From a virus, in the IMG/VR virus record IMGVR_UViG_3300044825_000106, positions 1 to 35,318 of that record: DNA of 35,318 bases. The stretch is one strand, 5' to 3'. A model generated the notes under the pieces. That model saw nothing but the letters and a program-made list of their open reading frames with translations, was not told where the DNA came from and did not search any database. The translations under genes were made by a program, and so were the position numbers. This document shows positions 6,239 to 34,760 of this stretch, piece by piece (position 1 is the stretch's first letter; each line of letters begins with the position of its first letter).

Positions 6239-7504
6239 GTGGCTGATGTACGGATAGCACTTGGCGGCTTTGGCTCCGAAGGCTGGGGCCAGGCCGCTTG
6301 GGGTTTCGGTAATGTCTCTTTGGAGGCTACCGGACAGGTAGGTTCTGTCGCCGTTCAAGCCAGCACAGATGTACCCGTAACAGGTGTTACGGCCACCGGT
6401 CAGGTAGGTTCGGTCCAGATCTCTGGGGATGCGGTAGTCCTTCTAACGGGGGTACAAGCCGCCGGCCAGGTTGGTCAAGTCGATGTAGCAGCTGACGCAA
6501 ATGTATCCGTTACAGGGGTTGAAGCCACCGGGCAGGTAGGATCGGTTACGGTCGAGGCTGGGGCTGATGTAGACGTTACAGGCCTTCAGGCTGACGGATT
6601 TGTCGGGTCGGTTCAGGTATCTGGGGACGCCAATGTCCTTTTAACCGGGGTCGAGGCAATCGGCCAGGTAGGCCAGGTAGACGCCCAGGGCGGGGCCGAT
6701 GTTGATGTTACCGGCCTTGAGGCTACCGGCGAGGTTGGATCGGTAGTCATCCAGGCAGACGCCAATGTAGACGTAACAGGTGTTACGGCTTTTGGCCAGG
6801 TAGGCCAGGTCGATCAGACCGGGGATGCCATTGTCGATGTAACAGGTGTTACGGCCACCGGAGAGGTTGGCAGCCCAACCATTGAAGGCGATGCCAATGT
6901 GGACACGACCGGCCTGGAGGGTACAGGCCAGGTTGGGTCAGTAACGGTTGAGGCTGGATCAGACGTTTTAGTAACAGGTGTTACTGCCACAGGCGAGGTA
7001 GGCGATGTTGTTGTAGTACAGAACATCGATGTCTTGGTAACCGGGGTAGAAGGGACTGGTCAAGCTGGTCAGGTAGATGTTCAGGGTGATGCAAACGTAG
7101 ACACCACTGGAATAGAGGCTACTGGGCAGGTAGGTACGGTTACCGTAGCTGCCAACGCCGATGTATTTGTAACAGGTGTTACGGCTACAGGGGAAGTTGG
7201 CCAGGTAGACCATCAAGGCGATGCGACCGTCAATCTTACCGGGGTTGAGGCTACCGGAGAGGTTGGCAGCGCAACAATTCGAGGTGATTCAAATGTTACA
7301 ACCGCAGGGCTCCAGGCCACCGGACTGGTCGGGTCTGTAGTTGCTGCGGCCAATGCGAATGTTTTAGTAACCGGGGTCCAGGCTACCGGATATGTTGGGA
7401 ATGTTTTAATATGGAGCGTGATCGATGACGGTCAGACCCCCAATTGGGCATCCATAGACGATTCCCAAACACCGAATTGGACTCCTATTTTAGAGGCAGC
7501 TTAA
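6239..7504 (+). CDS. Virion protein of sixteen 22-residue GQVGSVTV/DVxVTGV repeats
   Basis: 421 residues, GTG start. After 28 residues (GGFGSEGWGQAAWGFGNVSL at the end) come sixteen exact-length 22-residue units of the form [E/T/Q]ATGQVGSVxVxxxADVxVTG[V/L], with no insertions, then a partial unit and a tail with DDGQTPNW and DDSQTPNW. Each unit should supply two beta strands, so a long beta-solenoid or fibrous stack is likely (inference). It lies between a minor virion gene and the tail fibre and is probably surface exposed. The same GSVTV module caps two other proteins in this window. Five junctions encode VTGVT with the 14-bp palindrome described separately. The GTG start is the least certain part; AGGG at 6228-6231 could serve it. 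Confidence 0.8.
   Translation: MADVRIALGGFGSEGWGQAAWGFGNVSLEATGQVGSVAVQASTDVPVTGVTATGQVGSVQISGDAVVLLTGVQAAGQVGQVDVAADANVSVTGVEATGQVGSVTVEAGADVDVTGLQADGFVGSVQVSGDANVLLTGVEAIGQVGQVDAQGGADVDVTGLEATGEVGSVVIQADANVDVTGVTAFGQVGQVDQTGDAIVDVTGVTATGEVGSPTIEGDANVDTTGLEGTGQVGSVTVEAGSDVLVTGVTATGEVGDVVVVQNIDVLVTGVEGTGQAGQVDVQGDANVDTTGIEATGQVGTVTVAANADVFVTGVTATGEVGQVDHQGDATVNLTGVEATGEVGSATIRGDSNVTTAGLQATGLVGSVVAAANANVLVTGVQATGYVGNVLIWSVIDDGQTPNWASIDDSQTPNWTPILEAA
6377..6390. repeat. GTAACAGGTGTTAC palindrome, copy 1
   Basis: Exact copy in the repeat-protein gene at the junction of units 1 and 2, encoding VTGVT. Arms GTAACA and TGTTAC are perfect inverted repeats around GG. Confidence 0.8.
6773..6786. repeat. 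GTAACAGGTGTTAC palindrome, copy 2
   Basis: Exact copy at the junction of repeat units 7 and 8 of the same gene, encoding VTGVT with the same codons as copy 1 even though the following unit differs (TAFG rather than TATG). Confidence 0.8.
6839..6852. repeat. GTAACAGGTGTTAC palindrome, copy 3
   Basis: Exact copy at the junction of repeat units 8 and 9, exactly 66 bp after copy 2. Confidence 0.8.
6971..6984. repeat. GTAACAGGTGTTAC palindrome, copy 4
   Basis: Exact copy at the junction of repeat units 10 and 11, encoding VTGVT; the codon after it (ACT) differs from the ACG of copies 1-3, yet the 14 bases are unchanged. Confidence 0.8.
7169..7182. repeat. GTAACAGGTGTTAC palindrome, copy 5
   Basis: Exact copy at the junction of repeat units 13 and 14, the last of five within the tandem array. 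Confidence 0.8.
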
Positions 7505-7514
7505 AAGGTGAAAT

Positions 7515-10500
7515 ATGACCATTAATTACACAACCCTGTTGGGCTTGGCCCAGCCGGTAACCGGAACCGAACAAGGCACTTGGGGTGATACTGTCAATGA
7601 TGCAATTACCGCCCTGGTCGAAGAGGCCATCGCTGGTGGTGAATCGATTGACGTTACTTCCGGGAACGTCACCCTAACGGATACAGACGGCGTAGCCAAT
7701 CAGGCTCGAAACGCCATCTTAATTATTACAGGTACTCCCGGGACGACCCGAAATGTTCTTGCCCCAAACCTTAGCAAGACCTATGTTGTCATCAACAATT
7801 CGGACTCATCGGTTGTAATCAAAGGGGTAACCGGGCCAACGACCGGGGTAACCATTACAGCAAGCGATAAGGCTCTTGTGGCCTGGAACGGATCTGATTT
7901 TGTCCGTGTCGGCGCATCTGCTGGCGGCTCAAACACCCAGGTCCAATATAACAATAACGGCAATCTGGCTGGATCGTCTAATTTAACCTTTGACGGAACG
8001 ACCCTTACCGCCGCTGCGTTTGCTGACTCTTCTTTAACGTCCGGTCGAGTTGTCTACGCTGGAGCCAGCGGTAATTTAACTGATTCTACAAACTTAACCT
8101 TTGACGGAACCAACCTTGTTGCGGCAAGCATTAAGGATTCTGGCCTTACCTCAGGTCGAGTTGTTTATGCCACAACAAGCGGTGAGTTAACCGATTCATC
8201 AAACCTTACCTTTAATGGAACAACGCTCACTGCGGCAGGATTCTCCGGTCCTTTGAATGGCAGCGTTGGAGCTTCAACTCCAAGTACTGGCGTATTTACA
8301 GACGTAACCTTGAATGCTCAGGGCGATGTCCGGTTTGCTGATTCAGACTCGTCTAACTGGGTGGCTTTCCAGGGTCCGGCAACGATTGCATCGAATGTCA
8401 CTTGGACGCTTCCTTCCGCTGATGGCACAAGCGGACAGTTTCTGTCTACCGATGGCCTTGGAACCCTGTCATGGGCCACGGCCAGTAGCGGCGCATCTGC
8501 GGCAACTCCGACTGCGTTGGGTACGGTGTATGGGTCGATGACCACTGCCGGTGCGTCACCGTATCTGACTGCGCTTGGTTATAACGCTGGCGCAGTCAAC
8601 ACCGGCGTTAATAACACCTTTGTTGGCTTTGAGGCTGGTAACGACAACACCACGGGAACAAACAACACCGCCGTTGGCTATCAGGCGTTGGATGTTAATA
8701 CGACAGGCGCAAGCAATACAGCCTTTGGTGCTTATGCTTTAACATCCAACACCACCGCATCAAACAATACTGCACTTGGATATGGAACACTTGCTCTAAA
8801 TACCACTGGCGCAGAAAATACTGCGGTTGGGTATGAGGCGTTGGATGTCAATACGACTGGTATTAGAAACACAGCTGTTGGATTAGATGCTCTTGGTTCA
8901 AATACTACCGGTGGAAGAAATGATGCTTTTGGTTGGAAAGCGTTACTTGCAAATACCACTGGAAGCAATAACGTAGCATTTGGCTCCGGTACATTAAATG
9001 CCAACACAACGGCGTCCAACAATACCGCAATTGGTTATAACGCATTAAATGTCAACACCACCGGAACAAACAACGTAGCAGTTGGTTATGCTGCTATGGA
9101 TGCCAATACAACCGGCAGAGAAAATACTGCGGTTGGCTCAGAATCATTTGGTGCAAATACCACCGGAATTAGAAACGCAGCATTTGGATATAACGCTCTT
9201 GGAGCAAATACAACCGGTATTGAAAACACGGCTGTCGGTGCTTATGCGTTAGATGCACATACTGTAGGAACAGGCAATGTTGCTGTTGGTTTTAATGCGC
9301 TTACAGCGGCTGATTCTAATAACAATACAGCAGTTGGATTTAAGGCTATGGAAGCCACTACCACCGGCAATTCAAATGTCGGACTTGGTATGAGGGCGTT
9401 AGAATTAAACACCACCGGCGACTTTAACGTAGCGGTTGGTTTTGAGGCTCTTGCCGACAATACCACGGGTACGCAAAACGTGGCTATGGGTTATAGAGCC
9501 GGAGACCAAATAACCACTGGCGCATATAACGTAGGAATAGGTGTCAATGCCCTTGGGGGCGGAGTTGTGGTTCCTTGGGGATGCGTTGCAATCGGTGCTA
9601 ATGCGCTCGGAGCATACACAGGAAACAGTCAGTTTGAGGGTGCATCTATTGCAATTGGTTGGAGCGCATTGGTTCGTGCTACAACAGGTGACTCAAACAT
9701 CGCTATTGGTCGTGATACCGCTGTTCAATTAACCACAGGTGGTAACAACATTGTTATTGGTGTTCGTGCCTATGAAACCGCAGTAACTGGGTCAAATAAC
9801 ATCGCCATTGGTGGTGGCGCAATGGGTAGCGGACAAGTTACCGGAGGCGGCAATATTGCAATTGGACATACTGGTGATGGAAATAGGGTTCTGCAAGCAG
9901 TAACAAGCGGTGCTGCCAATGTTGCAATCGGCTCGGGGTCAGGTAAAGCAATAACCACTGGCGTAAACAACATAGGTCTTGGTCAAAGTACGATATATGA
10001 CGTTACAACCGGAGACAATAATGTATGTATCGGCGCAAATGCTGGACAATCAACTTCTCCATCCGGTTCAATTACTACTGGTTCAAATAATTTTGTTCTT
10101 GGCAACAACAGTATTGCAAACTTGTATTGTGCTGATACAACAATTTCTTCTTCGGACGCAAGAGATAAAACTGATGTAAGTGATTTTACCTTTGGATTAA
10201 ATTGGATCACCCAACTTCGTCCTGTTACTTATCGGTGGGATAAACGGGCTTGGTATGTTGCCGATGATGCAACAACAGAAGAAGTTATTAATGCTAAACC
10301 AGATGGAAGCAAAAAACGTGAGCAGTTACATATTGGATTTTTGGCCCAAGAAGAATTGGCGGTTGAAAATCAATTTGGGTACGGAACCAACAAAAACAAT
10401 ATGTTGATTGTAAACCTCAATGAAGACGAAAGCGCATACGGTCTTAAATATGAGCGTCTTGTGCCGGTGCTTGTCAATGCCATCAAAGAACTTAAAACCG

Positions 10501-11738: not shown

Positions 11739-12679
11739 TTCAAGCCAAAGGCGGTACAGAAATTCTTTACGACCGTCTGGCTGCGTGTGTGGACTTGACC
11801 GGGATTAACCTAATCAAGTCTACGGCGTCCCATAAACTGCTTGATCCAAATAAGAAAAACATCCTTTGGGAGCATTTGAGCTATGACCAGCCAAATGTCC
11901 AGGCCCTTAAAGATCAAAGCCTAATCGACCGATTAGACGCCATAGTCTTTGTAAGCCATTGGCAGCACGACCAATTCCGGCGGCACTTTCCCATCCCGGG
12001 TAACAAGTGTTACGTTATTCAGAACGCCACCGAGGCGTCAGCCCACCATGTAAAGCCAAGCAGCAATATCCGTTTGATTTACACCTCTACACCCTGGAGG
12101 GGGCTCAAGGTCTTGGCAGATGTCTGGGAGCGCCTGGGACGGGATGATGTCGAGCTGGTGGTCTATTCCGGGACCAAGATCTATGGCCAGGAGTTTCACG
12201 ATCGAGAGCATCCAAAGTTTGCTCCGATCTACGAAAAGCTCAAGCGGCTGCCTGGGGTGACCCATATTGACTATGCACCCAACGAAGAGGTGCGCCAGGC
12301 GCTTAGGTCATCTCATATCATGGCTTATCCTAATACCTGGGAAGAAACATCTTGCCTGGCCGCTATGGAGGCTTTGACTGCCGGATGTAAGGTGGTAACG
12401 ACCATATACGGGGCCCTGCCGGAAACCTGTGGTGTCTGGGCTGATTACATACCTGCCTCAGCCAATATGGCGGATAGATACGCAGACGCCTTAAATCAGG
12501 CTATTGACAGCTTTTGGGAAGACGAGACCCAGTACAAACTCTTAGACCAGGTTGATCATTACAACAGGTACTGGACATGGGAATATCGACTCAAGCAATG
12601 GAACGACTTTTTCAAGGAGATTAGGAATGGCCGAGAAGTGGATACAAGAGGCAATCAAAAAGCCTGGATCGCTGCGTAA
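11735..12679 (+). CDS. GT-B fold glycosyltransferase (GT4-like)
   Basis: 314 residues, slightly short for a GT-B enzyme. The N-terminal half has AIVFVSHWQHDQFRRHFP and the central YVIQNATEAS, where the two Rossmann domains meet. The C-terminal domain has LIYTSTPWRGLKVLADVWER, and YPNTWEETSCLAAMEALTAG, whose E-x7-E region binds the nucleotide sugar in GT4 enzymes. It begins at GGTE-like KGGTEILYD, the usual donor-loop start, so the N-terminus is minimal. It probably transfers a sugar in the cytoplasm; the acceptor is unknown. Its coding contains GTAACAAGTGTTAC at 12000-12013. The 3' end overlaps the next gene. Confidence 0.85.
   Translation: MIQAKGGTEILYDRLAACVDLTGINLIKSTASHKLLDPNKKNILWEHLSYDQPNVQALKDQSLIDRLDAIVFVSHWQHDQFRRHFPIPGNKCYVIQNATEASAHHVKPSSNIRLIYTSTPWRGLKVLADVWERLGRDDVELVVYSGTKIYGQEFHDREHPKFAPIYEKLKRLPGVTHIDYAPNEEVRQALRSSHIMAYPNTWEETSCLAAMEALTAGCKVVTTIYGALPETCGVWADYIPASANMADRYADALNQAIDSFWEDETQYKLLDQVDHYNRYWTWEYRLKQWNDFFKEIRNGREVDTRGNQKAWIAA
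12000..12013. repeat. Palindrome variant GTAACAAGTGTTAC
   Basis: Both arms are perfect, with AG at the centre. It lies in the GT-B glycosyltransferase gene but in another reading frame (GGT AAC AAG TGT TAC, encoding GNKCY), which argues that the conserved thing is DNA, not a VTGVT peptide. Confidence 0.7.
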
Positions 12680-16542: not shown

Positions 16543-17364
16543 ATGGCGATGATCAAGTTCCGGGCTCCGGCGTTACCGCTGCCTGGACAAAACTACGACC
16601 AGATTCAGTTCTACCAGCTTATCCGGGCGCTTCAGCTTTACTTCAACCAGCTTGACTCCCTGACCCCCATCGAGGTCGATTCAATTACCGCTGCCAATTT
16701 TTTTGGTGGAGAGTTCTTTGGGGAGGGCCGTGGGCTTTACTTCCCCTATATGTGTCTTGAAGACGATGCAGATCAAATTCTGACGGCTGCACTTACCCCA
16801 CAACAGGTTAGGTTCAATGCCAACGTCTCTTACAACGACATATTCTTTACCGGCAACAATGGTCTGCACGCTATTTATGCCGGCGTCTACAACATCCAAT
16901 ATAGTCTCCAGCTGGTCAATACAGCAAACACTCAACATTACGCTTGGGTATGGATTAGAAAAAACGGGGTGGATCTCAAAGGCAGTGCAACCAAGTTTAG
17001 TGTTATATCCAGGAAAAATCCTTCTAGCTTTGGCTATTCTTGCGCAGTATCTAACGTCATAGTCGAGCTTGAGGCTGGGGATTATGTAGAGGTCTGGTGG
17101 GCAGCAGATGCCATCTACGTCCCAGCCACATCAGACGGTATTTACATGGAGTACTACTCTGCCGATTCGGATGGATTTACACATCCCACTTTGCCCTCAG
17201 CATTGGTCACCATGACATTTGTAAGCGAAATGCCGCCCTCGACCGTCTTGGGGGTCTCTGCGCTCGGCAAGGTTGGCTCTGTCACCGTCCAGGCTGCGGC
17301 CAGTAACACTGTTACAGGGGTTTCTGCCACAGGATCTGTAGGAAGCGTTACAGTAAGCGTATAA
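16543..17364 (+). CDS. C1q-like virion decoration protein with GSVTV tail
   Basis: 273 residues. Residues about 90-225 have the strand order of C1q/TNF-like domains: IYAGVYNIQYSLQLVNTANT, AWVWIRKNGVDLKGSAT, and VIVELEAGDYVEVWWAADA. The C-terminus has two copies of the module VGSVTV (ALGKVGSVTVQAA and SATGSVGSVTVSV), shared with the proteins at 4035 and 6239. AGGAG at 16532 supports the ATG. It probably forms a trimer on the tail or capsid surface and may contact host sugars (inference from the fold class). Confidence 0.75.
   Translation: MAMIKFRAPALPLPGQNYDQIQFYQLIRALQLYFNQLDSLTPIEVDSITAANFFGGEFFGEGRGLYFPYMCLEDDADQILTAALTPQQVRFNANVSYNDIFFTGNNGLHAIYAGVYNIQYSLQLVNTANTQHYAWVWIRKNGVDLKGSATKFSVISRKNPSSFGYSCAVSNVIVELEAGDYVEVWWAADAIYVPATSDGIYMEYYSADSDGFTHPTLPSALVTMTFVSEMPPSTVLGVSALGKVGSVTVQAAASNTVTGVSATGSVGSVTVSV
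17303..17315. repeat. Shortened palindrome GTAACACTGTTAC
   Basis: Same two arms with a one-base centre (13 bp), inside the C-terminal VTG module of the C1q-like gene. It may be a variant site or a coincidence of the related coding; spacing differs from all other copies. Confidence 0.35.
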
Positions 17365-17386: not shown

Positions 17387-17677
17387 ATGGATGATCAGCA
17401 GTTCCTTGCCCTGGTCACGGAGGTGGCTAAGGTGGCAAAGCCTATGCACAAAAACACGGTCGTAGTAGATGAAATGGACACTCCCTGGCCGGAATTTGAG
17501 ATTGACAGCCTGGATTGCATAATGATCTTCATCTATATGTGCGACATCTACGGCGTCCCGGAAGAGGTGGGCAAGACCCTCATGGCCAAGACGCCTAGGG
17601 ACCTTCAGGCTTTCCTGGCCCAGAATAAGACCAGGGAGCCGACCAGCATCCAGGAGGCGGTGGAGTCGATCCAATGA
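17387..17677 (+). CDS. Acyl carrier protein
   Basis: 96 residues, near the usual 75-100 for ACP. Helix I is DQQFLALVTEVAKVA; the loop ends in EFEIDSLDCIMIFIYMCDIY, where S41 of D-S-L is the expected phosphopantetheine attachment serine. Helices II and III follow (GVPEEVGKTLMAKTPRDLQA). Holo-ACP would carry a growing acyl chain as a thioester. The gene ends in ATGA overlap with a beta-ketoacyl-ACP synthase, so the two very probably work together. No phosphopantetheinyl transferase is seen here, so the host enzyme would be needed. GGAGG at 17378-17382 precedes the ATG. Assignment rests on motif and partner. Confidence 0.8.
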   Translation: MDDQQFLALVTEVAKVAKPMHKNTVVVDEMDTPWPEFEIDSLDCIMIFIYMCDIYGVPEEVGKTLMAKTPRDLQAFLAQNKTREPTSIQEAVESIQ

Positions 17678-18786
17678 TCCATCTCACCCATGCCAGGACA
17701 GCCTATTCCGAGGTAACAGAGTTATTCGAGGATGCCTTCTACCCCCAGAGGGTGCATTGGTTTCCAGAGGCCTTTAACCGGCTTCAGACCAAGATGTTCT
17801 ATGTACCCCACCGGGTGGCCGATAAAGTCTTAGATCCTGAGCTCTGTACGTTTCTTAGGGAAAACCCAGTAGGTAAGACAGCTTTCATCCTGGCCGGCGG
17901 GAATCAGCACTTTGCCGGTATCCAGAGAACAGCCAAGACCAGCCGCCTGGCGTATGAGTACCGATTCCTACCCCTAACCCTTACCCAGGTCTATGCCGGC
18001 AGGATTGGCCAGCAAATGGGGGCCCATGACCTAATCCAGACCGATGCCACGGCCTGTGTCTCGAGTCTCAAGGTTCTAATGGACACCGAGGTATTGATGA
18101 AGCATTACGGGTTTGACCGGGTAATTGTCTTGGCGGTCGAGGATGCCGTAAGCGACTCGGTATTGGAGTTTTTTGGGGAGTCCGGGGCCAGTCTTACCCT
18201 GAAACAAGAGCAGGAGGGCATTGTCCCGTCAGCCTTTGATGAGAAGAACCGGGGTTTCTATGTCGGCCAGGGGGCAGCTTTGGCTGTCTTTGAGAGCGAC
18301 CAGGCGGTAAAAGTAACAGGTGTTACACCCATAGCCCGGTTGTGCGGTGCTTATACGGCCAGTGAGAACTGCTCAAACGCCATAGGCCAACGGGAGGATG
18401 GGGAAGGGTATGTAAAAGCAATCTGGGGGGCTTTGGCTCAGACCCAGTACCACCCGGACAGGATCAAAATTGTCAAAACCCACGGTACGGGAACGCCATC
18501 GAATAATCAGGCTGAAAAAGCCGCCCTTGAACGATCTTTACCAGGGGGCTTTATTGCAACCAGTTTTAAGCCTAAAATCGGACATACGATGGGGGCAAGC
18601 GGGCTTCTGGAAAGCGTCATGCTTTTCGAGTCAATCTCCAGAGGCGTAGTCCCGGCCATTCCCAATCGCACCCAAAATGACTCGGTATTTTTGTCGCAAG
18701 ACACGGCAGCCCCCGAAGGGCTGGTTTTGAGTTTAGCGGCTGGTATGGGTAACGTCTATTCCGCCGCCATATTTGAGGTGACCTAA
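17674..18786 (+). CDS. Beta-ketoacyl-ACP synthase (KAS I/II-like)
   Basis: 370 residues, a little shorter than FabF/FabB (about 400-410). The thiolase-fold active site is intact: C128 in TDATACVSSLKVL, H270 in VKTHGTGTPSNNQAEKAAL, and K299/H304 in KPKIGHTMGASGLLESV. EKNRGFYVGQGAALAVFES matches the conserved strand before the second half, and AAGMGNVYSAAIF replaces the usual GFGGTN end. It would condense an acyl group with malonyl-ACP, adding two carbons. The cognate ACP overlaps it upstream. Purpose in infection is unknown: reshaping host membrane lipid, or making an acyl group for a virion or surface component (inference). The coding contains the 14-bp palindrome at 18313. Confidence 0.9.
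   Translation: MIHLTHARTAYSEVTELFEDAFYPQRVHWFPEAFNRLQTKMFYVPHRVADKVLDPELCTFLRENPVGKTAFILAGGNQHFAGIQRTAKTSRLAYEYRFLPLTLTQVYAGRIGQQMGAHDLIQTDATACVSSLKVLMDTEVLMKHYGFDRVIVLAVEDAVSDSVLEFFGESGASLTLKQEQEGIVPSAFDEKNRGFYVGQGAALAVFESDQAVKVTGVTPIARLCGAYTASENCSNAIGQREDGEGYVKAIWGALAQTQYHPDRIKIVKTHGTGTPSNNQAEKAALERSLPGGFIATSFKPKIGHTMGASGLLESVMLFESISRGVVPAIPNRTQNDSVFLSQDTAAPEGLVLSLAAGMGNVYSAAIFEVT
18313..18326. repeat. GTAACAGGTGTTAC palindrome, copy 6
   Basis: Exact copy inside the ketoacyl synthase gene, encoding VTGVT at residues 214-218, a segment between conserved strands that has no family constraint I know of. Confidence 0.8.
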
Positions 18787-24785: not shown

Positions 24786-27700
24786 TGGCAGACAAAGGCT
24801 GGGATGTAGTCTCCACCAGTAAGGTTGGAGCCGATCCGTGGGCAGTAACAGGTGTTACACCTCTAGGAGAACCAGAAGCTCCCTTGGTAAGCCCAGAGGA
24901 GATGCTTACTCCCACCCCTGGAGCCCCAGTCACCCCGACCGATATGGCCAAAGCTGTCGGGGAGCGTCTAGTCGGTGGTGCAAAGTACATTGCTGGGACC
25001 GAGCCTGAGAAGCGTGGCAGCCTAATAGGCGATGTTGTAACCGGTGTCGAGCGGGCCAATGTTGGCGCAGCCGGTGTATTCCGAGCCTTATCCGAGGCAG
25101 CAGCCCCAGTCTTAGACCCAATTACAGGAAAGATCCTCCCAGAGAATCCTCTGCGCCGGATAGCGTCTGAGTTCGAGCGCCTTGGGAAAGAATCAGAAGC
25201 CAGGATCAAAGCCAAGGCCCCTACTGAAGAACAAGACGTTATCTCCGCAGGTGTCTCAAGCGGAATCCAAAGTCTTACCCAGAGCCTTATGGCTATCCCA
25301 ATGGCATTCTTGCCTGGTGGGCAGCCAGCAGCTCTTGTCATGCTGTCCACTAACACAGGCGGTAACGCCTACCAGGAGGCTAGAAACAAGGGCCTAAGCC
25401 CAGCACAGGCCATCCCATACGCTGTCTCCCAGGCAAGTATTGAGTACGCCACCGAGGTAATGCCTCTTACCAAGCTAGTCTCGGACATCAATCAGAAGAC
25501 CGGCTTTGGCAAGCTCTTGATGAACCAAATCGTCCGAGAGGTTCCGGGAGAGCAAGTCGCTACCGTGCTCCAGGACATGAACGACTGGGCCGTACTGAAC
25601 CCAGAAAAGACCGCCCAACAATACTTGGAAGAGCGTCCCAGCGCAGCAGCCCAGACCCTGGTGGCCACGATCGTTGGCGTTGGCGGGAACGTAATTGTTG
25701 GTAAAGCCCTCCAGACTGTTGCTGGAGCAGGGGAGAAGCCTGAAGCCCCCAAAGTGGAACCTACCCTTGAAGCCCCAGAGGGTTTTGATGTGGTCTCGGT
25801 TACCCCGATCGAGCCCGTAACACCTGTTACTCCAACAGCCCCGCCTGCTCCAGAAGCTGCACCGCCGGCTGCCCCACCGCCCACAGAGGTAGCTCCAGAG
25901 GAAATTACCGGCCTTACCGCAGCCGAGTTTGAGGCCCCACCTGAAGAGGCTGTCACACCTGTTGCAGAAGCCGTAACACCTGTTACTCAAGAGACAGCTA
26001 CAGAAGCACCAGCCCCGGTCGAGCCACCCCCGGTCCAGAACCTGACCGGCGGCCTACCTATCCAGGAGATTCCGATTAAGGATCTCAAGGTCTCCGATGA
26101 GGTTCCCCAGTTCAAGATTGGGGCTACCAAAGAGGGTGTGGTTGAGCCCCTGGGTGGGAAGTTTGAGCGCACCGGGGTAGCACCGATCCAAGTCTGGCGG
26201 AGAACGGATGGAAGCCTTGAGGTGATCTCAGGCCGCCACCGACTCGACCTGGCTAAGCGGAGCAAGGAAAAGACCATCCCTGCCCAGATACACGATGAGG
26301 CGCAAGGGTTTACTCGAGACAAAGCAGCAATCCTGGATGCGGAGTTGAACATCCGTGACGGCCAAGGAAAGGTGAAAGACTATGTTGGATACTTCAAAGG
26401 TTCAGGAATCTCCAGAGACGAGGCAGACGCACGAGGCCTATTGGCGAGAGCGATTGGCAAGCGGTCTTACGCCATCGCAGCTGACGGATCTGAGGAGCTC
26501 ATTACCGCCCATCGTGCCGATGCAGTCGGAGACGAAGCAGCCTACCTCATCGCCCTCAATGCCCCCAAGGATGCCAGCCTCCAAGCCGTAGGCATTAAGG
26601 CGGTCCAAGACGGCAAGAGCGCAGCCTCGGCGGTCAATCTTATGCAAGCGGTCAAGACCTTGGCCGGGGAGCGAGAGACCACCACCGATATGTTCGGGTT
26701 CGATGAGTCGGCCATGAAAGAGGCCGAAGAGATGGCCAAGATCGCCGCCCGTAAGCAGCGGGAGATCCAGCAGCGTCTCAGTGCTATTTCTGGAGCTTCA
26801 AAGAATCCTGAGCTGGCTCGTAAAGAGGGGATCAACATTGATAACCCAGAAGCTGTCCGGCAGCGGGTTGATGAGCTGCGCCAGGCTAAGGCTACATGGG
26901 ATAACTGGTCATCAAGCTCTGACCTTATTGGCCAGATCCGGGCTGAGATGGGCCCGTCTGAATTTGCCCTACAGCAGCAGACCGAAGAGGATCTACGGGC
27001 TCAAGAGGCAGCCGCAGCCGAGCGGGAAGCAGCCGAAGTCAAAGCGATCGCTGACCGTGAAGTCGGTCTATTTGGATTGCAGCCACAGGTTCAAGAGCGG
27101 GAAGCACCGCCGTCCGGGGATCTGTTTGGAGCTCGAGGCTTAGCAGAGCAGCCAGCCAAGAAAGCACCAGCAGCGCCACCCACAGAGACTGGCTTGTTTG
27201 CGCCTAAGGAAGAGGCTCCGAAAGATGTGTCTTTGAGTGAGGCTGAGTTTGATGCTCTAACAGCCAGGCCCTATGACGAGCTTAGCAGGGACGAAAAAGA
27301 GCGGATGTTCGTTTACAACGATGTGTTCCGCTCTTCAGGTGTCGAAGTAATTCGGCAGCCGGAGAATGGAAACGAAATCAATCTGAAGCCGTATAAGAAC
27401 GGATACGTTGCATCGATTAGCTACATTGGGAAGAAAGAGGGTCGATCAGCTCCGGTTTCGGCGTTTATTAATGAGTCCAATCCTGTTTACCCGGATCGCA
27501 AGTCTGCAATCAAAGCCAAGGCCGAACAGATCCGAGACATGGCAGTCAAGTCCAAGGACCGCAAGGCCCTGCTCTGGCTGGGCGATGTCATTCGGAAAGA
27601 GGGCATCACGCTAGATAAGGCGTTGCCGGTTAAACCAAGTAAGGAAAAGCAAGCCGAGATCAACCGGGAACGCCAGGCAGCCAAGAAGGAGGCGGTTGCA

Positions 27701-30700
27701 GCTGAAGAAAAACCGGTCAAAGGTGACGTCCTATTGCTCGAGGCAGACGAGCAAGCTGTTTCGGAAGCCCTCGAGCCGTCTGATCCAGAAGATGAGCGTA
27801 TTGCAGCTCTGTTTAACCCAGACCAAAAGCCGGCTAAGCCACAGGCAGAAGAGACTCTTACCCAGGCCCAAGCTAAGAAGCTAGTCAATAGCTGGAAGCA
27901 AGAGGCCAAGAATCAAGGCAAGTCTGGCAAGAACGGCGACAAGACTGTCATCAGCCTATTTGATGCGTCTGGCGAATGGGCTAAGCCTTGGGCAGATGCT
28001 GGGTTCAATGTAGTCACCTATGACCTCCAAACCGGCGATGACATCCGAGAATTTGATGCTGCAAGCCTGTTGGAAGCTCATGGGAATGACAATGTATGGG
28101 CAATTCTTGCAGCTCCACCATGCACCGACTTTGCTTCCTCTGGAGCTCAGTACTGGGCCAAGAAAGATGCTGAAGGCAAGACCGAGGCAAGTAACGAGTT
28201 AGTTCGCCAGGTGTTGCGTACTGTTGAGCTATTCCGCCCACCGGTCTGGGCTATGGAAAATCCTGTCGGCCGGATGGCAAAACTCAACGAGCTGCCACCT
28301 GCCCAGCTTACTTTCCAACCTAATCTCTACGGAGACCCGTACACCAAGAAGACCTTGCTCTGGGGTAACTTCAACAACCAGCTGCCGGAATCCCCTGTAG
28401 CACCGACAGAGGGTTCCAAGATTACCGAGAAGATTAGCGGAACCAACAAGTACGCTAGGTCATTGACGCCAGAAGGCTTTGCTTATTCGTTCTTCATGGC
28501 CAATAACCCGGAGAACATGACCCAGGAAGAGCGTCTTTCCAGAGAGTTTCATGGAATTGCTCCGAGCGAATTTAAGGGTGCTGGCACAGAAGAACAGATC
28601 CGAGACACCATTTCGGACAATTACTACGATGGCGATCTTGAGTCGGTGCGTGATGCTCTGAAGGTAATGAGAACGCTTGGCAAGCGGCCACCATCGATTG
28701 AGCTTGAAAACATCGATCTGGCCAACATCGATCAGAATCTGCCTGGCGCTAAGAAGAAGCTCCCACCGGGACGCTCTCCTGAACTGGCAGCAGCCGCACA
28801 GCAGCTCCAGCGTGGCGAGATCACCAAGAAAGAATTTGATGAGCTGGTCAACCGCTTTAGACCAATACCTGTCTACACTGAGCCGTTAAAGCCGGCCACA
28901 CCAGAGCAAATGTTTGACGCCCTGGATACAGCCAAACGGGAGAAGATCAACCCGGACATCAAGGCTGGCACATCGGTCGGACTACGCTTGGACATCCCTG
29001 CATTTAACCGCAAGGGCGTCTTTGTCGTCTCAATCCATGAGAAGCGCACACCCAGTGCAGCCGGCAAGACAATCGGCTATGGGTCTGTTGCCAAGATCAA
29101 GGATGTAACTTTTGGACTAGGTAAAGAGACTGAAGCGCTCAAAATAGCAGCTGGTGCATCTAAGGATGTACTCCAGACAATGGAAGGTAAGTGGGTTCCG
29201 ACCAATCCTGAGGAAGCCTATCGGGAAGCTCAGGCCGCCATCAAAAACCCTGAGTGGATACAGATCGGCATTGACCCGACCCGCCATTCATATTTCTACG
29301 ACCGCCGCACAACCCAGCCTGTCATCAAGGCAGACGAGATCATCCAGATCGGGAACATGATTCTGGGTAAAGGGGTGGAGTTTGGTAAGAAAGAAGACTT
29401 CCTCTTTAACATTGCTTCGGACCCAGTAACAACTGTTGCCGAGGTACGAGATGGAATTGAAAATTCCCGTAAGCAGCAGCTTGAAACGCTTGCCCGTCTT
29501 GCCCGTAAGAAGTCTGAGCTAATCAAAAAGGTTCGCAATTACGGATCGGACATTGAGACCCAGCGGCTTTTGAATGAGCTTGAAGCTGAGATCAAGATGT
29601 TCCGTCTGGGTTCTGCGATCCGTGAACCATCTACTTCAGCCGAAGCATTTCTGAAACACGCCAGGGACGCTATGGATGGTACTGGGCCGTTCAGAGAGCC
29701 GGTCTTATCTCCTGATGTGTTTGCCACAATTCAGGCGGCCTATATCAAAACACCGTGGATCTTAGAGGGGCTGCGCTTATCAATTAAAGCTCCGAAGTAC
29801 CCGTCATATTTAAATATAAATCCAGCTGCCGGTGTGTTCTTGCCATACGAGCGGATTGTCCGTCTCTATTCTGGTACGACAGGGGTGGAAGATCCAGTGA
29901 CACCTCGGCACGAGCTTATGCACTCGCTTGAGCAGATGATGTCCAAGGGGGCCAAGGATGCGGTAATCAAGGCCTGGGCCAATAGTTTGGAAAAGGCGAT
30001 CAAAAAATATACCGACAAGCGCAGCCAAGAGTATTTCAACAAGATCATGGAGTTTCTTGAGAACCCATCGGAAACCACTCGCCAAGAAGCTCTTTCGGTG
30101 CTCCCGTCTTACGACCTGTATCAGTACATCAACCCGTCTGAATACTGGGCGGTGAATGCTGAGAAACTCTTTAACTCTAAGCTCGGTACAGCATGGGATC
30201 GATTCAAGAAAGCCATACAAAAACTGTTTGAGGGTCTCAAGAACGTATTTGGTTTCAATAACACCTATGCGGTTCACAAGATGTTTGATGACCTGATGAA
30301 GACCAAACCCCCTCGAATGGGCAGGGAGAGTTTGGTTAACTATATGCTCTCAGGTCGAGCAAACATCAAGTTTCTTGAAAACGTCCAGAAGGTCGATGAC
30401 CTGTTGGCCAAGCAGAACGTGCCTGATACGCCGATGCTGGCCACCAGTGTGGTGAAGACCAAGATTCTGAACGCTGCCCGGGACATGAAGGATCTGTTCA
30501 AAGACATGATCCAGAACCCCAGAGAGATCCCGATGATGGCGTTTAACGGGATTGACTACGGGATTACCTACCTGCGGAACAAGAACATCTGGTTTGGTAC
30601 GGGCCTAAACGCTGCTGACTTTGCCAAGTACAACGGAGAGCTCAAGACCGGGGAGAACCTGGCCACCGCCTCTTTGGCCTTGGATAACGCCATCCGTGGT

Positions 30701-33343
30701 GGAAACATTGGCATCCAAGTGATCATGCAGGGTGGGATTAAGTTTGATGACAAGGCCAAGATGTTTGTGGCCACCGAGACCAAAAAGGGTATGCGCCAGG
30801 TCTATGAGGCTGAAGCCCGGCTGCGTGACGAGCTGGGAGCCCAACGTGCGACCAACCTGATCCAACGCTACCTCGAGGCTAAGCGGTCCCGAAGCATCCA
30901 GAACGAATACTACGATCGCCAGGCCAACCTTGAGGCTTTGAAAGAAGAGTTAGCCGACATGAAGGCTGACCCAAGCACCGATGCCAAAGAGCTCAAAGAG
31001 ATGGAGCGGGAAGTCAAACAGGCCGAGGATGACCTCAAGTCAATTGAGCTGGTAATGAGCAAGGTTCGATTGAACGATGAGCAGATCGATGAAGTCATCG
31101 CTATGGACAAGGATTATCCTGACCTCAAGGAGATCATTGATAACTTCCAGGCGGTCAATAAGAACCTGCTTAAATTCTGGCGGCAGGTCGGGATGCTCTC
31201 TGAGAACCGGTACAACGTGCTATCCAATATCAAGGACTATGTGCCCTGGTATCGGATCATGGATGACGCCGAGGATGTGCATTCCCCCCTCCAGTCCACC
31301 ACCCGCACGTTTACCAACATCGGCAAGGAAAAGATCTTCAAGGCTGGTAAACCTTCTGTGGTTACCGACTTTATTGCCGAGCAGGACCAACAGGTCTACG
31401 AGATCCAGCCGGCCAATGTAAACCGAGTGACCATCAACGGTAAAAAGGTCAAGCCTAGCGACATGGGGATTACCTCAGACGGCAAGGTTGAGATCAAGAA
31501 ACAGATCAACGAGGGTGATGTGGTGGTGTTCTACACCGATCGGGAGATTGAGAACATCATCGACAACATGACCCGGAACGTCATGCGCATGACCATGAAC
31601 GGGCTGCGTCAATATGCTGCCACCCGTATCGTCCAGGAGTACGCCACCAGGAACGAGAAGGGCAAGATTATGACCTTCCCGAAAGCTGAGCCGGACAATG
31701 GCCGGTTTAACTTCATCGTGGATGGCAAGCGTGTGGTGGTTGAGATCAAAGATCCCTTGGTTGCTGAAGCTATCTCTGGGATGGAGACCCTTGGCCTTAC
31801 CATGTGGAAGCCCTTGGCAGCGGCAGCAAACCTGACCCGCCGGGCGATTACTCTGTCTGGAACCTTCCAGCTCAAGCAGGTGTTCAAGGATGCTCCGACC
31901 GCAGCCTTGGTAACAGGTGTTAAGCGCCCCGACCTACTCATGGGCGGCGTGTTCAAAGGGTTTGTGACGAGCCTTACCAACTCAGACCCGGCCGTCCAGA
32001 TCCTCCGTGCTGCCGGCATTGGTGGCTTCCACTCCCCAGCTCGAACCCCAGAGGCTGAAGTCAAGCGTCAGATTGGGGTGATCAACAAGAATAGCTATGA
32101 CTATGTAATCGGGGCCCTGGACCACTTTGGAGACTCCTCCGACATGGCCCAGCGTGTGGCCACCTATAAGCGTGTCTTGGCCGAGACCGGTAATGAGGCC
32201 CAAGCCCTCTACCAGGCTGCCAACGTGATTAACTTCATGCGGCATGGTTCGGGCCAGGTAGCTCAGATCGTTACCAAGACCGTGCCCTTTATGAACGCCT
32301 ATGCCCAATCGATTGATGTTCTCTTCCAGTCCCTGGCTGGCGGTGGTCTCAAGGGTGTAAGCCGCAAACGTGCCTTGGCCCGTATTGCCGTTACTGGCTC
32401 ATTATTAGTCGGCATGACCTTGGTTTACTGTATGTTGGTTGGAGATGATGAGGAGTATCAGCTCCTTGATGACCAGTCCAAGCTGCGCAGCTATGTAATC
32501 CCCGGTACGAAGATTGTGCTCCCGATGAACACCTCGGCAGCCTATTTCTTCAAAGCCATCCCAGAGATGATCTACAACTATGTGATGAAGAACGGGACCG
32601 ATAACCCGATGGACGAGAAGCGTCTGCGCCGTGGCTTGAAAGAGGCTGCCGTGGATATGCTCCTGGGTCCGAACCCCGTGCCTTCCGCAGTCAAGCCGTT
32701 TGTTGAGATTGCTCTCAATAAGAATTTCTTTACCGGGGAGACTGTCATTCCCCGTGGCATGGAGAAGCTCGAGACCGCAGAACAATACAACGCCAACACC
32801 TCCGAGGCGGGTAAGTTCCTCTCCTCGATGACCGGCGGGAAAGAGAAGCGGCTGCTCAGCCCTGTCGAGGCAGATCACCTGATCCGCAGTATCTTTGGTA
32901 CGGCCGGCGCTATGGCTCAATGGGCATCCAACGTAATCGGGGAGGCAGCCGAGACTCGTCCTGCTGTGGTGGCCAGAGACTACCCATTCATCGGCCCGTT
33001 CCTGCGCCCAGAAGTACCCCGTGGCCCAGAGGATCTGTTCTACGACTTCAAGGAATACACCGACAAGAAAGCCCAGACCTATAACCGTCTCATCGAGCGG
33101 GAGCGGTTTGATGAGGCAGATGAATACTTGAAGAAGAACGAGGGCCTGGTGGCATTCTCTGAGTACGCCAACGAGACCGAGGCCACCCTGAAAGAGATCA
33201 ACGCCCTCATCCGTATGTACGGGGAGACAACGGATAAAACCATGTCACCCAAAGAGAAGCGGGCCGAGATTGAGAACCTTCAGCGGGTCAAGAACGAGAT
33301 TCTCGGGAACATCGAGGAAATCAGGAAAGCCGCTGGGATGTAA
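24785..33343 (+). CDS. Giant polyvalent internal virion protein (ParB-, MTase- and HExxH-containing)
   Basis: 2852 residues in one frame. Regions in order: helical, partly hydrophobic N-terminus (about 150-320); Pro/Val/Thr linker (320-420); ParB-like nuclease domain (about 422-560; IQEIPIKDLKVSDEVP, ISGRHRLDLAKR); a long helical stretch; a C5-cytosine-methyltransferase-like domain (about 1055-1240) with SLFDASGEWAKPWADAGF, catalytic-type APPC (C1113) and MENP (1157-1160); a domain with IDPTRHSYFYDRRTTQPVI; an HExxH metallopeptidase-like site H1709-E-L-M-H1713; helical regions; and a C-terminal polyvalent-protein domain (about 2270-2670, LPD38-like) with one membrane segment near 2530. Such proteins are carried in the capsid and injected with DNA, where the enzymatic parts may defend or process it. 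Whether each domain is active is not shown. Confidence 0.85.
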   Translation: MADKGWDVVSTSKVGADPWAVTGVTPLGEPEAPLVSPEEMLTPTPGAPVTPTDMAKAVGERLVGGAKYIAGTEPEKRGSLIGDVVTGVERANVGAAGVFRALSEAAAPVLDPITGKILPENPLRRIASEFERLGKESEARIKAKAPTEEQDVISAGVSSGIQSLTQSLMAIPMAFLPGGQPAALVMLSTNTGGNAYQEARNKGLSPAQAIPYAVSQASIEYATEVMPLTKLVSDINQKTGFGKLLMNQIVREVPGEQVATVLQDMNDWAVLNPEKTAQQYLEERPSAAAQTLVATIVGVGGNVIVGKALQTVAGAGEKPEAPKVEPTLEAPEGFDVVSVTPIEPVTPVTPTAPPAPEAAPPAAPPPTEVAPEEITGLTAAEFEAPPEEAVTPVAEAVTPVTQETATEAPAPVEPPPVQNLTGGLPIQEIPIKDLKVSDEVPQFKIGATKEGVVEPLGGKFERTGVAPIQVWRRTDGSLEVISGRHRLDLAKRSKEKTIPAQIHDEAQGFTRDKAAILDAELNIRDGQGKVKDYVGYFKGSGISRDEADARGLLARAIGKRSYAIAADGSEELITAHRADAVGDEAAYLIALNAPKDASLQAVGIKAVQDGKSAASAVNLMQAVKTLAGERETTTDMFGFDESAMKEAEEMAKIAARKQREIQQRLSAISGASKNPELARKEGINIDNPEAVRQRVDELRQAKATWDNWSSSSDLIGQIRAEMGPSEFALQQQTEEDLRAQEAAAAEREAAEVKAIADREVGLFGLQPQVQEREAPPSGDLFGARGLAEQPAKKAPAAPPTETGLFAPKEEAPKDVSLSEAEFDALTARPYDELSRDEKERMFVYNDVFRSSGVEVIRQPENGNEINLKPYKNGYVASISYIGKKEGRSAPVSAFINESNPVYPDRKSAIKAKAEQIRDMAVKSKDRKALLWLGDVIRKEGITLDKALPVKPSKEKQAEINRERQAAKKEAVAAEEKPVKGDVLLLEADEQAVSEALEPSDPEDERIAALFNPDQKPAKPQAEETLTQAQAKKLVNSWKQEAKNQGKSGKNGDKTVISLFDASGEWAKPWADAGFNVVTYDLQTGDDIREFDAASLLEAHGNDNVWAILAAPPCTDFASSGAQYWAKKDAEGKTEASNELVRQVLRTVELFRPPVWAMENPVGRMAKLNELPPAQLTFQPNLYGDPYTKKTLLWGNFNNQLPESPVAPTEGSKITEKISGTNKYARSLTPEGFAYSFFMANNPENMTQEERLSREFHGIAPSEFKGAGTEEQIRDTISDNYYDGDLESVRDALKVMRTLGKRPPSIELENIDLANIDQNLPGAKKKLPPGRSPELAAAAQQLQRGEITKKEFDELVNRFRPIPVYTEPLKPATPEQMFDALDTAKREKINPDIKAGTSVGLRLDIPAFNRKGVFVVSIHEKRTPSAAGKTIGYGSVAKIKDVTFGLGKETEALKIAAGASKDVLQTMEGKWVPTNPEEAYREAQAAIKNPEWIQIGIDPTRHSYFYDRRTTQPVIKADEIIQIGNMILGKGVEFGKKEDFLFNIASDPVTTVAEVRDGIENSRKQQLETLARLARKKSELIKKVRNYGSDIETQRLLNELEAEIKMFRLGSAIREPSTSAEAFLKHARDAMDGTGPFREPVLSPDVFATIQAAYIKTPWILEGLRLSIKAPKYPSYLNINPAAGVFLPYERIVRLYSGTTGVEDPVTPRHELMHSLEQMMSKGAKDAVIKAWANSLEKAIKKYTDKRSQEYFNKIMEFLENPSETTRQEALSVLPSYDLYQYINPSEYWAVNAEKLFNSKLGTAWDRFKKAIQKLFEGLKNVFGFNNTYAVHKMFDDLMKTKPPRMGRESLVNYMLSGRANIKFLENVQKVDDLLAKQNVPDTPMLATSVVKTKILNAARDMKDLFKDMIQNPREIPMMAFNGIDYGITYLRNKNIWFGTGLNAADFAKYNGELKTGENLATASLALDNAIRGGNIGIQVIMQGGIKFDDKAKMFVATETKKGMRQVYEAEARLRDELGAQRATNLIQRYLEAKRSRSIQNEYYDRQANLEALKEELADMKADPSTDAKELKEMEREVKQAEDDLKSIELVMSKVRLNDEQIDEVIAMDKDYPDLKEIIDNFQAVNKNLLKFWRQVGMLSENRYNVLSNIKDYVPWYRIMDDAEDVHSPLQSTTRTFTNIGKEKIFKAGKPSVVTDFIAEQDQQVYEIQPANVNRVTINGKKVKPSDMGITSDGKVEIKKQINEGDVVVFYTDREIENIIDNMTRNVMRMTMNGLRQYAATRIVQEYATRNEKGKIMTFPKAEPDNGRFNFIVDGKRVVVEIKDPLVAEAISGMETLGLTMWKPLAAAANLTRRAITLSGTFQLKQVFKDAPTAALVTGVKRPDLLMGGVFKGFVTSLTNSDPAVQILRAAGIGGFHSPARTPEAEVKRQIGVINKNSYDYVIGALDHFGDSSDMAQRVATYKRVLAETGNEAQALYQAANVINFMRHGSGQVAQIVTKTVPFMNAYAQSIDVLFQSLAGGGLKGVSRKRALARIAVTGSLLVGMTLVYCMLVGDDEEYQLLDDQSKLRSYVIPGTKIVLPMNTSAAYFFKAIPEMIYNYVMKNGTDNPMDEKRLRRGLKEAAVDMLLGPNPVPSAVKPFVEIALNKNFFTGETVIPRGMEKLETAEQYNANTSEAGKFLSSMTGGKEKRLLSPVEADHLIRSIFGTAGAMAQWASNVIGEAAETRPAVVARDYPFIGPFLRPEVPRGPEDLFYDFKEYTDKKAQTYNRLIERERFDEADEYLKKNEGLVAFSEYANETEATLKEINALIRMYGETTDKTMSPKEKRAEIENLQRVKNEILGNIEEIRKAAGM
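24845..24858. repeat. GTAACAGGTGTTAC palindrome, copy 7
   Basis: Exact copy 60 bp into the giant polyvalent gene, encoding AVTGVTP. Confidence 0.8.
25817..25830. repeat. GTAACACCTGTTAC palindrome, copy 8 (opposite orientation)
   Basis: Exact copy in the CC orientation in the proline-rich linker of the giant gene, encoding PVTPVT. Confidence 0.8.
25973..25986. repeat. GTAACACCTGTTAC palindrome, copy 9
   Basis: Exact CC-orientation copy in the same linker, encoding AVTPVTQ. A decayed version, GTCACACCTGTTGC, lies 21 bp upstream at 25952-25965. Confidence 0.8.
31910..31923. repeat. Near copy GTAACAGGTGTTAA
   Basis: One mismatch at the last base, in the C-terminal region of the giant gene, encoding LVTGVK. 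The lysine codon that follows forces the change, so the site may be tolerated rather than optimal. Confidence 0.5.
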
Positions 33344-33758: not shown

Positions 33759-33767
33759 ATCCCGATC

Positions 33768-33781
33768 GTAACACCTGTTAC
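33768..33781. promoter_or_regulatory. GTAACACCTGTTAC palindrome between divergent rusA and exonuclease
   Basis: Exact copy in the short divergent space, 9 bases upstream of the rusA start on the minus strand and about 40 bp from the -35 of the plus-strand promoter. A weak -10-like TATTGT on the minus strand (33795-33790) would place the rusA transcript start at the edge of the site. This is the only copy in an operator-like position. Confidence 0.65.
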
Positions 33782-33820: not shown

Positions 33821-33849
33821 TTGACATCCCAAAAACACGGGAGCAAAAT
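33821..33849 (+). promoter_or_regulatory. Sigma-70-type promoter for the DNA-metabolism operon
   Basis: TTGACA at 33821-33826, a perfect -35, is followed after 17 bases by CAAAAT at 33844-33849 (4 of 6 to TATAAT). Transcription would begin near 33856, with AGGAG at 33866-33870 and the exonuclease ATG at 33876. It lies about 40 bp from the palindrome at 33768-33781, so a protein bound there could influence it. It is the clearest promoter in the window. Confidence 0.65.
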
Positions 33850-33875
33850 GGGTCCCTCTACTGCTAGGAGACCGA

Positions 33876-34760
33876 ATGAAATTAACCAATAAACATGGGA
33901 TTCCCCAGACGTTTGTGAACGTCTTGCAGCGGCCCACCTACTCTAAAGGCAAGGCCCACCTGTCCGTTACCCAGCTAATCAATAGCCCCAAGATTGTGGC
34001 CTTGACCGCCAAGTTCCAAGACGAGCTTGAGCAGGATGTCTCGGAGATGATCTGGAGCCTCTTTGGGTCTGCCATCCACGGGATATTGGAGCATGGCAGG
34101 GATGAGAGCCACATAGTCGAGGAGCGCCTACACGCCACGGTAGACGGCTGGCGGATCTCCGGGGCCATTGACCTACAGATTAAGACCGAGGGTGGCCTAG
34201 CCATCCGGGACTACAAGACCTGCTCGGCTTGGTCGGTGATGAACGAGAAGATCGAGTGGGAGCAGCAGCTCAACATCTACGCCTGGCTGGTTGAGAAGGT
34301 AAAAGTAACACCTGTTACGGATGTTGGGATTGTGGCCATCATCCGGGACTGGAGCCGGCGGGATGCCTCCAAGAACCCAGACTACCCTCAGGCCCCGGTC
34401 AAGGAGATCCCTATCCGGCTTTGGACCCTCGAGGAGCGGGAGGCCTACATCAAGCACCGGATCGACCAGCACTCGGCCTGTGAATTTGCCCTGGAGACCG
34501 ATTCCACCCTGCCTGAATGCACCCCCGAGGAAATGTGGGAAAAACCGACTGTATGGGCCGTCCGTAAGGTCGGAGGGGTAAGGGCTAAGTCTGTCCATGA
34601 GACCGAATCTGAGGCTGCTATAGCCCTGGAGAAGGCTGGTGGCGGGTATGAGATTGAGGTGCGGCCGGGCAGCCGTACCAGGTGTGAGACTTTTTGCCCA
34701 GTAAACCATCGTTGCCAGCAATGGCGGGAATATCAGGAGAGTAAGAGTGACAGCAAATGA
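33876..34760 (+). CDS. PD-(D/E)XK exonuclease (RecB/Cas4-like)
   Basis: 294 residues. The nuclease core shows H68 (GSAIHGILEHG), D99 (RISGAIDLQ), D112-Y-K114 (AIRDYKT) and Q131 (WEQQLNIYAWL), the motif order of RecB-family nucleases. Three C-terminal cysteines, C270, C274 and C280 (CETFCPVNHRC), with C116 near the active site could hold an iron-sulfur cluster as in Cas4/AddB-type enzymes (inference). With the ERF-type annealing protein two genes downstream it likely forms a recombination pair, resecting ends for single-strand annealing. The palindrome copy at 34305 lies within it. AGGAG sits 5 bases before the ATG. Confidence 0.85.
   Translation: MKLTNKHGIPQTFVNVLQRPTYSKGKAHLSVTQLINSPKIVALTAKFQDELEQDVSEMIWSLFGSAIHGILEHGRDESHIVEERLHATVDGWRISGAIDLQIKTEGGLAIRDYKTCSAWSVMNEKIEWEQQLNIYAWLVEKVKVTPVTDVGIVAIIRDWSRRDASKNPDYPQAPVKEIPIRLWTLEEREAYIKHRIDQHSACEFALETDSTLPECTPEEMWEKPTVWAVRKVGGVRAKSVHETESEAAIALEKAGGGYEIEVRPGSRTRCETFCPVNHRCQQWREYQESKSDSK
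34305..34318. repeat. GTAACACCTGTTAC palindrome, copy 11
   Basis: Exact CC-orientation copy inside the exonuclease gene, encoding KVTPVTD just after the conserved QQLNIYAWL motif, about 450 bp inside the operon. Confidence 0.8.

Follow-up and report, generated by a model that had tools for sequence, protein, structure and literature searches.

Dispersed palindromes in an uncultured phage and their probable recognition by a ParB/KorB-type protein of the same phage

The window, that is, the whole stretch of 35,318 nucleotides analysed here (IMG/VR virus record IMGVR_UViG_3300044825_000106, positions 1 to 35,318), carries many copies of the 14-bp palindrome GTAACA-NN-TGTTAC. We deal here with these palindromes and with a ParB-like protein of the same virus population which is our candidate for binding them. 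An earlier note on the window, made from the sequence alone, had listed copies throughout, and all 12 exact ones were recovered, seven with GG, four with CC and one with AG at the centre. The copy at 31910 indeed has a single mismatch, and a second copy with one mismatch lies at 29426. The sites are given below; those in the tandem-repeat gene were assigned by an exact-match scan and by reading of the open reading frames (ORFs).

6377..6390, plus strand: site GTAACAGGTGTTAC, in frame as VTGVT, in the tandem-repeat gene
6773..6786, plus strand: site GTAACAGGTGTTAC, in the tandem-repeat gene
6839..6852, plus strand: site GTAACAGGTGTTAC, in the tandem-repeat gene
6971..6984, plus strand: site GTAACAGGTGTTAC, in the tandem-repeat gene
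7169..7182, plus strand: site GTAACAGGTGTTAC, in the tandem-repeat gene
12000..12013, plus strand: site GTAACAAGTGTTAC, in another reading frame, in the group 1 glycosyltransferase gene
17303..17315, plus strand: 13-bp version of the site, GTAACACTGTTAC, with a 1-bp centre
18313..18326, plus strand: site GTAACAGGTGTTAC, in the ketoacyl-synthase-like gene
24845..24858, plus strand: site GTAACAGGTGTTAC, close to the start of the giant-protein gene
25817..25830, plus strand: site GTAACACCTGTTAC, in the giant-protein gene, as VTPVT
25973..25986, plus strand: site GTAACACCTGTTAC, in the giant-protein gene, as VTPVT
31910..31923, plus strand: near-site GTAACAGGTGTTAA with one mismatch, at a VTGVK peptide
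33768..33781, plus strand: site GTAACACCTGTTAC, 5′ of the exonuclease gene, likely a regulatory operator (putative)
34305..34318, plus strand: site GTAACACCTGTTAC, within the exonuclease gene

Dinucleotide shuffles of the window (n = 100) gave a mean of 0.00 exact matches compared with the 12 observed and, when up to two mismatches were allowed, a mean of 0.73 compared with 18. At a GC content of 51%, the 14-mers are the only strongly repeated near-palindromes of at least 10 bp in the window. The site at 33768 lies between the giant-protein and exonuclease genes; both are on the plus strand, so that this space is not clearly divergent as the note had it. A minus-strand ORF of 138 amino acids overlaps the site. 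The orientation change at which the note hinted, from the GG copies being followed by CC copies, has weak evidence and is not supported, because five of the GG copies share one repeat gene and the related phage G103 interleaves both orientations.

Apart from the site at 33768 all exact copies (11 of 12) are found in plus-strand reading frames, ten of them in frame 0, where they encode VTGVT or VTPVT. In the 32 ORFs counted (two were read out of frame, neither with such a peptide) there are ten VT[GP]VT pentapeptides, and all ten are written in exactly the codons of the palindrome, for which the chance per pentapeptide is about 0.005 given the codon usage of the window. Units which read VTGVE, VTGVQ or VTGVS use other codons. 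The tandem-repeat gene (6239-7504) consists of units of 22 amino acids of the VTGVTATGxVGSV type and has the palindrome only in those units that read VTGVT. Similar numbers in codon-preserving shuffles had been named as a possible refutation. Carried out within genes (n = 1000), these shuffles yield 0.136 copies on average and never more than 2, as against the 11 coding copies observed; without the tandem gene the mean is 0.05 and the maximum 1, as against six. Since the shuffles do not give the copies, the constraint acts on the DNA. At 18313 the one relative shown, a 71% identical ketoacyl synthase, has different residues. At the exonuclease copy (34305) TPVT is kept in three of the 14 relatives shown and the palindrome codons in none, and at the near-site (31910) relatives retain the VTGVK peptide with different codons. 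Because the relatives lack the palindrome codons or have other residues at these positions, the intragenic copies look acquired as DNA sites. In the window virus and in G103 they are added to the sites of the wider group.

The remainder of the genome is found on the 27-kb contig G067. Positions 34705-35318 of the window match positions 1-614 of G067 (614 bp, 95.1%), and positions 1-127 of the window are the last 127 bases of G067 (100%). Window and G067 together make up a phage genome of roughly 61.7 kb, and the relative G103 has 61.6 kb. G067 contains three further exact copies. One lies within the gene of a ParB-like protein (G067 7751-8578), and by the overlap at both ends this gene belongs to the same virus population.

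The ParB-like protein matches Pfam ParB_N below the cut-off and HTH_23 just above it, and has matches to ParB-like partition proteins in PHROG. Its AlphaFold2 model (mean predicted local distance difference test score, pLDDT, 81.5; predicted TM-score, pTM, 0.50) comprises a ParB_N fold, a helix–turn–helix (HTH) at residues 122-144, two strands and long C-terminal helices; the C-terminus is probably helical and of the coiled-coil type. Residues 1-150 compare with RK2 KorB (8qa9_B) at Z 13.2 and a root mean square deviation of 3.7 over 141 residues. Scores close to that of KorB are reached by Noc and ParB chains, several of them over the first domain only (Foldseek/VIA). The ParB_N fold followed directly by the HTH places the protein among the ParB/KorB-type proteins. 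The GERR-type motif for binding of cytidine triphosphate (CTP) was not found; in the 15 aligned members it is invariantly G-F-H-R, so that Glu and the first Arg are absent and GxxR is kept. A search of the phage collection for relatives found four records, which by name are of metagenome type.

Relatives of this protein were gathered in three scans; in each of the last two, more than 570 stretches matched and the 80 best were used. The final set has 109 loci in 74 clusters at 90% identity, with one locus per cluster as representative. The final counts leave out any second locus of one contig, L336 and L337, whose ParB does not differ from that of G080, and the partial loci L358 and L359; G032 and G034 (L476, L477) were added by hand. 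In 56 cluster representatives (872 kb) there are 29 copies of TAACA-N-TGTTA, of which 24 have a symmetric outer base, and 51 of TAACA-NN-TGTTA, of which 49 do. For both centres together 73 of 80 are symmetric, and all other centres of 0-9 bp total 8. The loci of 80 relatives of a structural gene (914 kb) hold 2 copies with the 1-bp and 4 with the 2-bp centre. Clusters with a recognition helix of the MTVGR type have a symmetric TAACA-N1/2-TGTTA site in 41 of 53 cases, those with other helices in one of 21.

The structural relatives were selected by the protein encoded at 14621-16540 (best 80 of 413 viral stretches). No iterated dyad was seen in their 80 loci, the top count among the matches listed being 2 (6-bp arms), and whole-record scans of 48 of these relatives found no 14-mer. 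The palindrome therefore does not come with the structural module. The earlier note had held that related phages which encode the same proteins but have no sites would speak against a binding site. Such phages exist, as these 48 records demonstrate, but 45 of them have no ParB-family match, one has a marginal match and two have a different recognition helix; many are fragments. Among 50 whole records the ParB profile matched G011 marginally and G032 and G034 strongly, and the latter two have non-MTVGR helices and no core.

Residue 133 (G067 numbering), the K in S-K-M-T-V-G-R with which the predicted recognition helix starts, predicts the outer base of the site from one phage to another. By cluster majority, K or R goes with an outer G in 20 of 21 cases and any other residue with an outer base other than G in 18 of 20, both exceptions being His with G (Fisher test of residue class against outer base, 1.7e-8, on clusters and with kinship ignored). 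An earlier set of 36 clusters had been fully in step (19/19 and 17/17, together 36/36); with more loci the figure is 38/41. Counted as half-sites with one locus per cluster, the outer bases are G76/A7/T1 for K, G10/C1/A1 for R, G9/A1 for H, T33/A11/C5/G3 for S and C11/A7/G1/T1 for A; Gly has no preference (T5/C6/A6/G7), and 11 of its 12 sites are asymmetric compared with 9 of 89 for all other residues. The sister phages G117 (Ser) and G119 (Ala), whose ParB proteins are 89% identical, differ at residue 133, and two homologous sites change in both arms between them (TTAACA..TGTTAA and CTAACA..TGTTAG). On a ParB tree from which the HTH was left out, the class of the residue and that of the base each change five times. 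In 200 pairings, both of the switches on well-supported branches go with the base in 182, one does so in 18, and in none do they go against it. Residue 133 aligns, through Thermus Spo0J, with R173 of Caulobacter ParB. According to PMC7383237, R173 hydrogen-bonds guanine 1 of parS, and a Gln at this position in Noc goes with adenine 1.

Positions of the sites are likewise not even. In the 53 clusters of the MTVGR type the density is 0.79 per kb upstream of the exonuclease, 1.34 at TerS/TerL and 0.34 upstream of parB; elsewhere it is 0.03 per kb (20 sites in 767 kb). A site is present in 13 of 28 exonuclease upstream regions, 23 of 27 TerS/TerL junctions and 18 of 51 parB upstream regions. At the right-hand end of the window the following features accompany the site at 33768.

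33821..33849, plus strand: putative sigma70 promoter TTGACA-N17-CAAAAT, 39 bp after the 33768 site
33876..34760, plus strand: PD-(D/E)XK exonuclease gene, 3′ of the putative promoter
34946..35318, plus strand: ERF gene, ended by the window edge and within the G067 overlap

For 13 exonuclease sites of related phages, a putative promoter with TTGACA and, 16-17 bp after it, a -10-like hexamer starts 40-45 bp further on in nine and 80 bp further on in one. At the parB site of L340 the gap to TTGACA is 10 bp. Across the group, palindromes are found at several putative promoters of the replicon including that of the protein's own gene, as for a KorB-like regulator; for the window virus this is clear only at the exonuclease promoter. 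Since the sites gather near putative promoters, with gaps as at the RK2 operators OB, a KorB-like transcriptional control is favoured.

Sequence comparison thus establishes that the sites do not arise by chance, that they occur together with the protein, that they covary with its helix and that they prefer certain positions. We consider it quite probable that the palindromes are specific binding sites of the ParB/KorB-type protein encoded by the same phage and that this protein is a KorB-like regulator without a ParA partner. The earlier note had suggested that one protein binds the site genome-wide and had proposed that this protein be sought outside the window; the HTH protein on G067, whose helix covaries with the site, agrees with this.

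We suggest that the system would operate as follows. A dimer of the ParB-like protein would read TAACA-N(1-2)-TGTTA, with residue 133 reading the outer base pair. It would act at the exonuclease promoter, at its own gene parB and at the TerS/TerL junction where the late genes begin, and would most likely control early, self and late transcription in the manner of KorB, with no ParA partner. It would repress rather than activate, and may slide on DNA as a nucleoside triphosphate (NTP) clamp. In the window lineage the site has multiplied within genes, where its copies plausibly load additional protein or act as decoys; as decoys the intragenic copies could titrate the protein during genome replication, and they may also block RNA polymerase. 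A more far-reaching picture is possible, but we rate it as somewhat doubtful: a large group of uncultured phages with a ParA-less clamp regulator of the ParB/KorB type, which is loaded at early, self and late control points and in some lineages forms a network over the whole genome through sites scattered in the genes. Its half-sites would have the opposite orientation to those of parS, and one helix residue would have switched specificity several times, both operator arms changing in step.

Several observations weigh against recognition by this protein or against its role as regulator. Two of the 74 clusters, that of G067 and that of G080 and G103, were reached via the site and the others via the protein alone. 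Of the MTVGR-type clusters 12 of 53 are without a symmetric site in the available DNA, and five of these have asymmetric ones. The relatives G045 and G046 have sites and no ParB was found in them; they are fragments of 20 and 15 kb, originally chosen for having the site and only then proved to be relatives. Whole-record scans of the structural relatives G019 and G031 found 11 and 12 copies of TAACA-W-TGTTA and no ParB of the G067 family. As these two have the core without this ParB, another protein can use a similar core, and the core alone is no proof of ParB; we regard them as a second dispersed-palindrome system. Their copies (G019: L473, L474; G031: L475) are mostly CTAACAWTGTTAG and several lie just upstream of genes. 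A protein of the LexA-like family described below was not found in G019 or G031.

As to specificity, two related loci, L511 and L517 (ParB 86% identical), account for nine of the 12 Gly-type sites. G119 holds one T site beside three C sites, the window virus has an A-type site in the TerS gene (G067 18382) beside its G-type ones, and the K cluster represented by L527 has an A site there and a G site in its other two members. The five independent residue switches of the best tree come down to two on well-supported branches, too few for a sign test to reach significance. As to function, the window virus is without a site directly upstream of parB, the nearest being inside the parB gene. The clamp behaviour of the protein is uncertain because GFHR replaces the GERR motif of the CTP-binding ParBs.

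Other explanations have to be compared with recognition by the ParB-like protein. The binder could be a small HTH protein resembling LexA which is encoded between TerS and TerL, next to the sites there. It is present in 84 loci (duplicates of contigs included), in G067 it matches a transcriptional-repressor family weakly, and the palindrome resembles the Gram-positive SOS box AAC-N4-GTT. However, its recognition region (mostly GRGNVxRKM) hardly varies between phages, whether their outer base is G, T, C or A or the core is absent. Between the sister loci L370 (of G119, with C sites) and L380 (of G117, with T sites) this region is nearly identical, and G032 and G034 encode the protein together with a non-MTVGR ParB and have no core. 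With no covariation of its helix with the site this candidate was rejected and we consider it unlikely. By eye, the protein at L326:18573-18803 and its homologues of about 75-100 amino acids have a LexA-type DNA-binding domain without the protease domain. A ParB fold together with dispersed palindromes would suit a partition system of the ParABS type, with the sites as centromeres; N15 is a phage-plasmid with centromeres dispersed in this way. The earlier note had thought of partition sites as well. Yet a motif scan of the open frames for the ParA-type Walker A motif (KGGxGKT-like) found none in the window, G067, G103, G119, G107 and G125, the matches to Walker motifs being a helicase and chance matches in other frames, and the sites gather near promoters and operon junctions. 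We hold partition to be very unlikely.

Still less probable is a motif of the host genome, either a highly iterated palindrome or the box of a host regulator, which was copied into the phage. Many sites of the window do lie inside genes, as with iterated host palindromes, but they covary with a phage protein and sit at phage control points. In a genome scan the exact 14-mer is nearly always single per stretch among the matches listed. Finally, selection for VTGVT and VTPVT peptides at the protein level, combined with expansion of repeats, would produce copies in frame, and ten of the 12 copies are of this kind, five of them in the tandem-repeat gene. Against this, codon shuffles fail to give the copies, the remaining two copies are out of frame and intergenic, respectively, and the three relatives with TPVT at the exonuclease position are without the palindrome codons. 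A coincidence of codons or peptides is rejected by the shuffles, and of all the explanations this one is the hardest to believe.

With regard to the further records, in a screen of 50 virus records that have the 14-mer it occurs four times in G080, three times each in G067, G072 and G082 and once or twice in the rest. G080 is related to the window virus, at 74% in the structural protein, 71% in the ketoacyl synthase and 70% in the exonuclease, and its ParB-like protein is a 53% relative of that of G067. The fetched stretches of G070, G072, G082, G096 and G097 gave no match to the window proteins or to ParB; the copies in G072 and G096 lie in huge repetitive coding frames of the VTGVT type or similar. 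No virus contig matched a pattern of two sites at a distance of 66 bp. In the phage collection the structural protein is best matched by DSL-LC04, for which no ParB is annotated, and a search for relatives of the protein encoded at 20656-22011 found none. An integrase did not turn up among those proteins of the window and G067 that were scanned, a subset of the ORFs. In the region 17387-18786 the ketoacyl-synthase-like gene is preceded by one for a small acidic protein, which has a DSLD motif and by eye is acyl-carrier-like; both genes sit in the phage structural region and have homologues in G080. The giant protein (24785-33343, 2852 amino acids) has a match to a DNA-methyltransferase PHROG, a weak ParB-like match and an LPD38 domain. 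A small protein at L326:13451-13720 on the minus strand matches sigma-70 region 4 weakly, just under the cut-off.

By these results the palindrome becomes a directly testable pair of protein and DNA. If our reading is true, the protein of G067 would bind only the G form tightly among GTAACACCTGTTAC, GTAACACTGTTAC, TTAACAnTGTTAA and CTAACAnTGTTAG, and the phage group would record how a regulator and its sites change together. It would be a natural experiment on the change of specificity in the ParB family, in which residue 133 (R173 in Caulobacter) predicts the outer base and Gly abolishes the preference. The positions of the sites suggest a KorB-style control of several promoters in phages without partition.

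Among the top matches listed in searches of the open-licence literature we found no report of such a site-protein system in phages. In parS, guanine 1 adjoins the dyad. The phage guanine, unlike that of parS, is outermost in a palindrome of 13-14 bp, which suggests that the half-sites are turned round relative to those of parS. The likeness to chromosomal ParB and Noc with their sites parS and NBS (PMC7383237) is that the residue aligned with R173 sets the base; in ParB Arg reads guanine 1 and here K or R goes with guanine. In a survey of ParB-fold proteins that includes phages (PMC12704722) the GxxR P motif is kept, as it is here in the form of GFHR; the portion of that survey available gives no cognate DNA sites or specificity code for this group. 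The earlier note had also compared the sites to the stoperators of mycobacteriophages, which share with them numerous sites for one phage protein across the genome. This likeness is not close, since stoperators are described in PMC9283540 as asymmetric sites of the immunity repressor. The phage sites here are palindromic, with GG and CC forms both within plus-strand genes, their predicted binder has a ParB fold, and the proteins scanned included no integrase.

The comparison with KorB of RK2 draws on PMC11790492. RK2 is a plasmid, whereas here the replicon is a phage genome without integrase or ParA in what was scanned; the C-terminus of the phage protein is predicted to be helical, GFHR replaces GERR, and the phage core is unrelated to the core of the OB oligonucleotide. 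For a partner of the KorA type, the LexA-like neighbour in the phages is a candidate only. Common to both are the ParB_N and HTH fold, a palindromic operator and the presence of this operator at several promoters of one replicon. The gaps are also alike: in RK2 the promoter follows OB after 4-10 bp or after 45 to >1000 bp (PMC11790492), and in the phages TTGACA follows the site after 10 bp (parB of L340) and after 39-45 bp (the window and nine other exonuclease sites).

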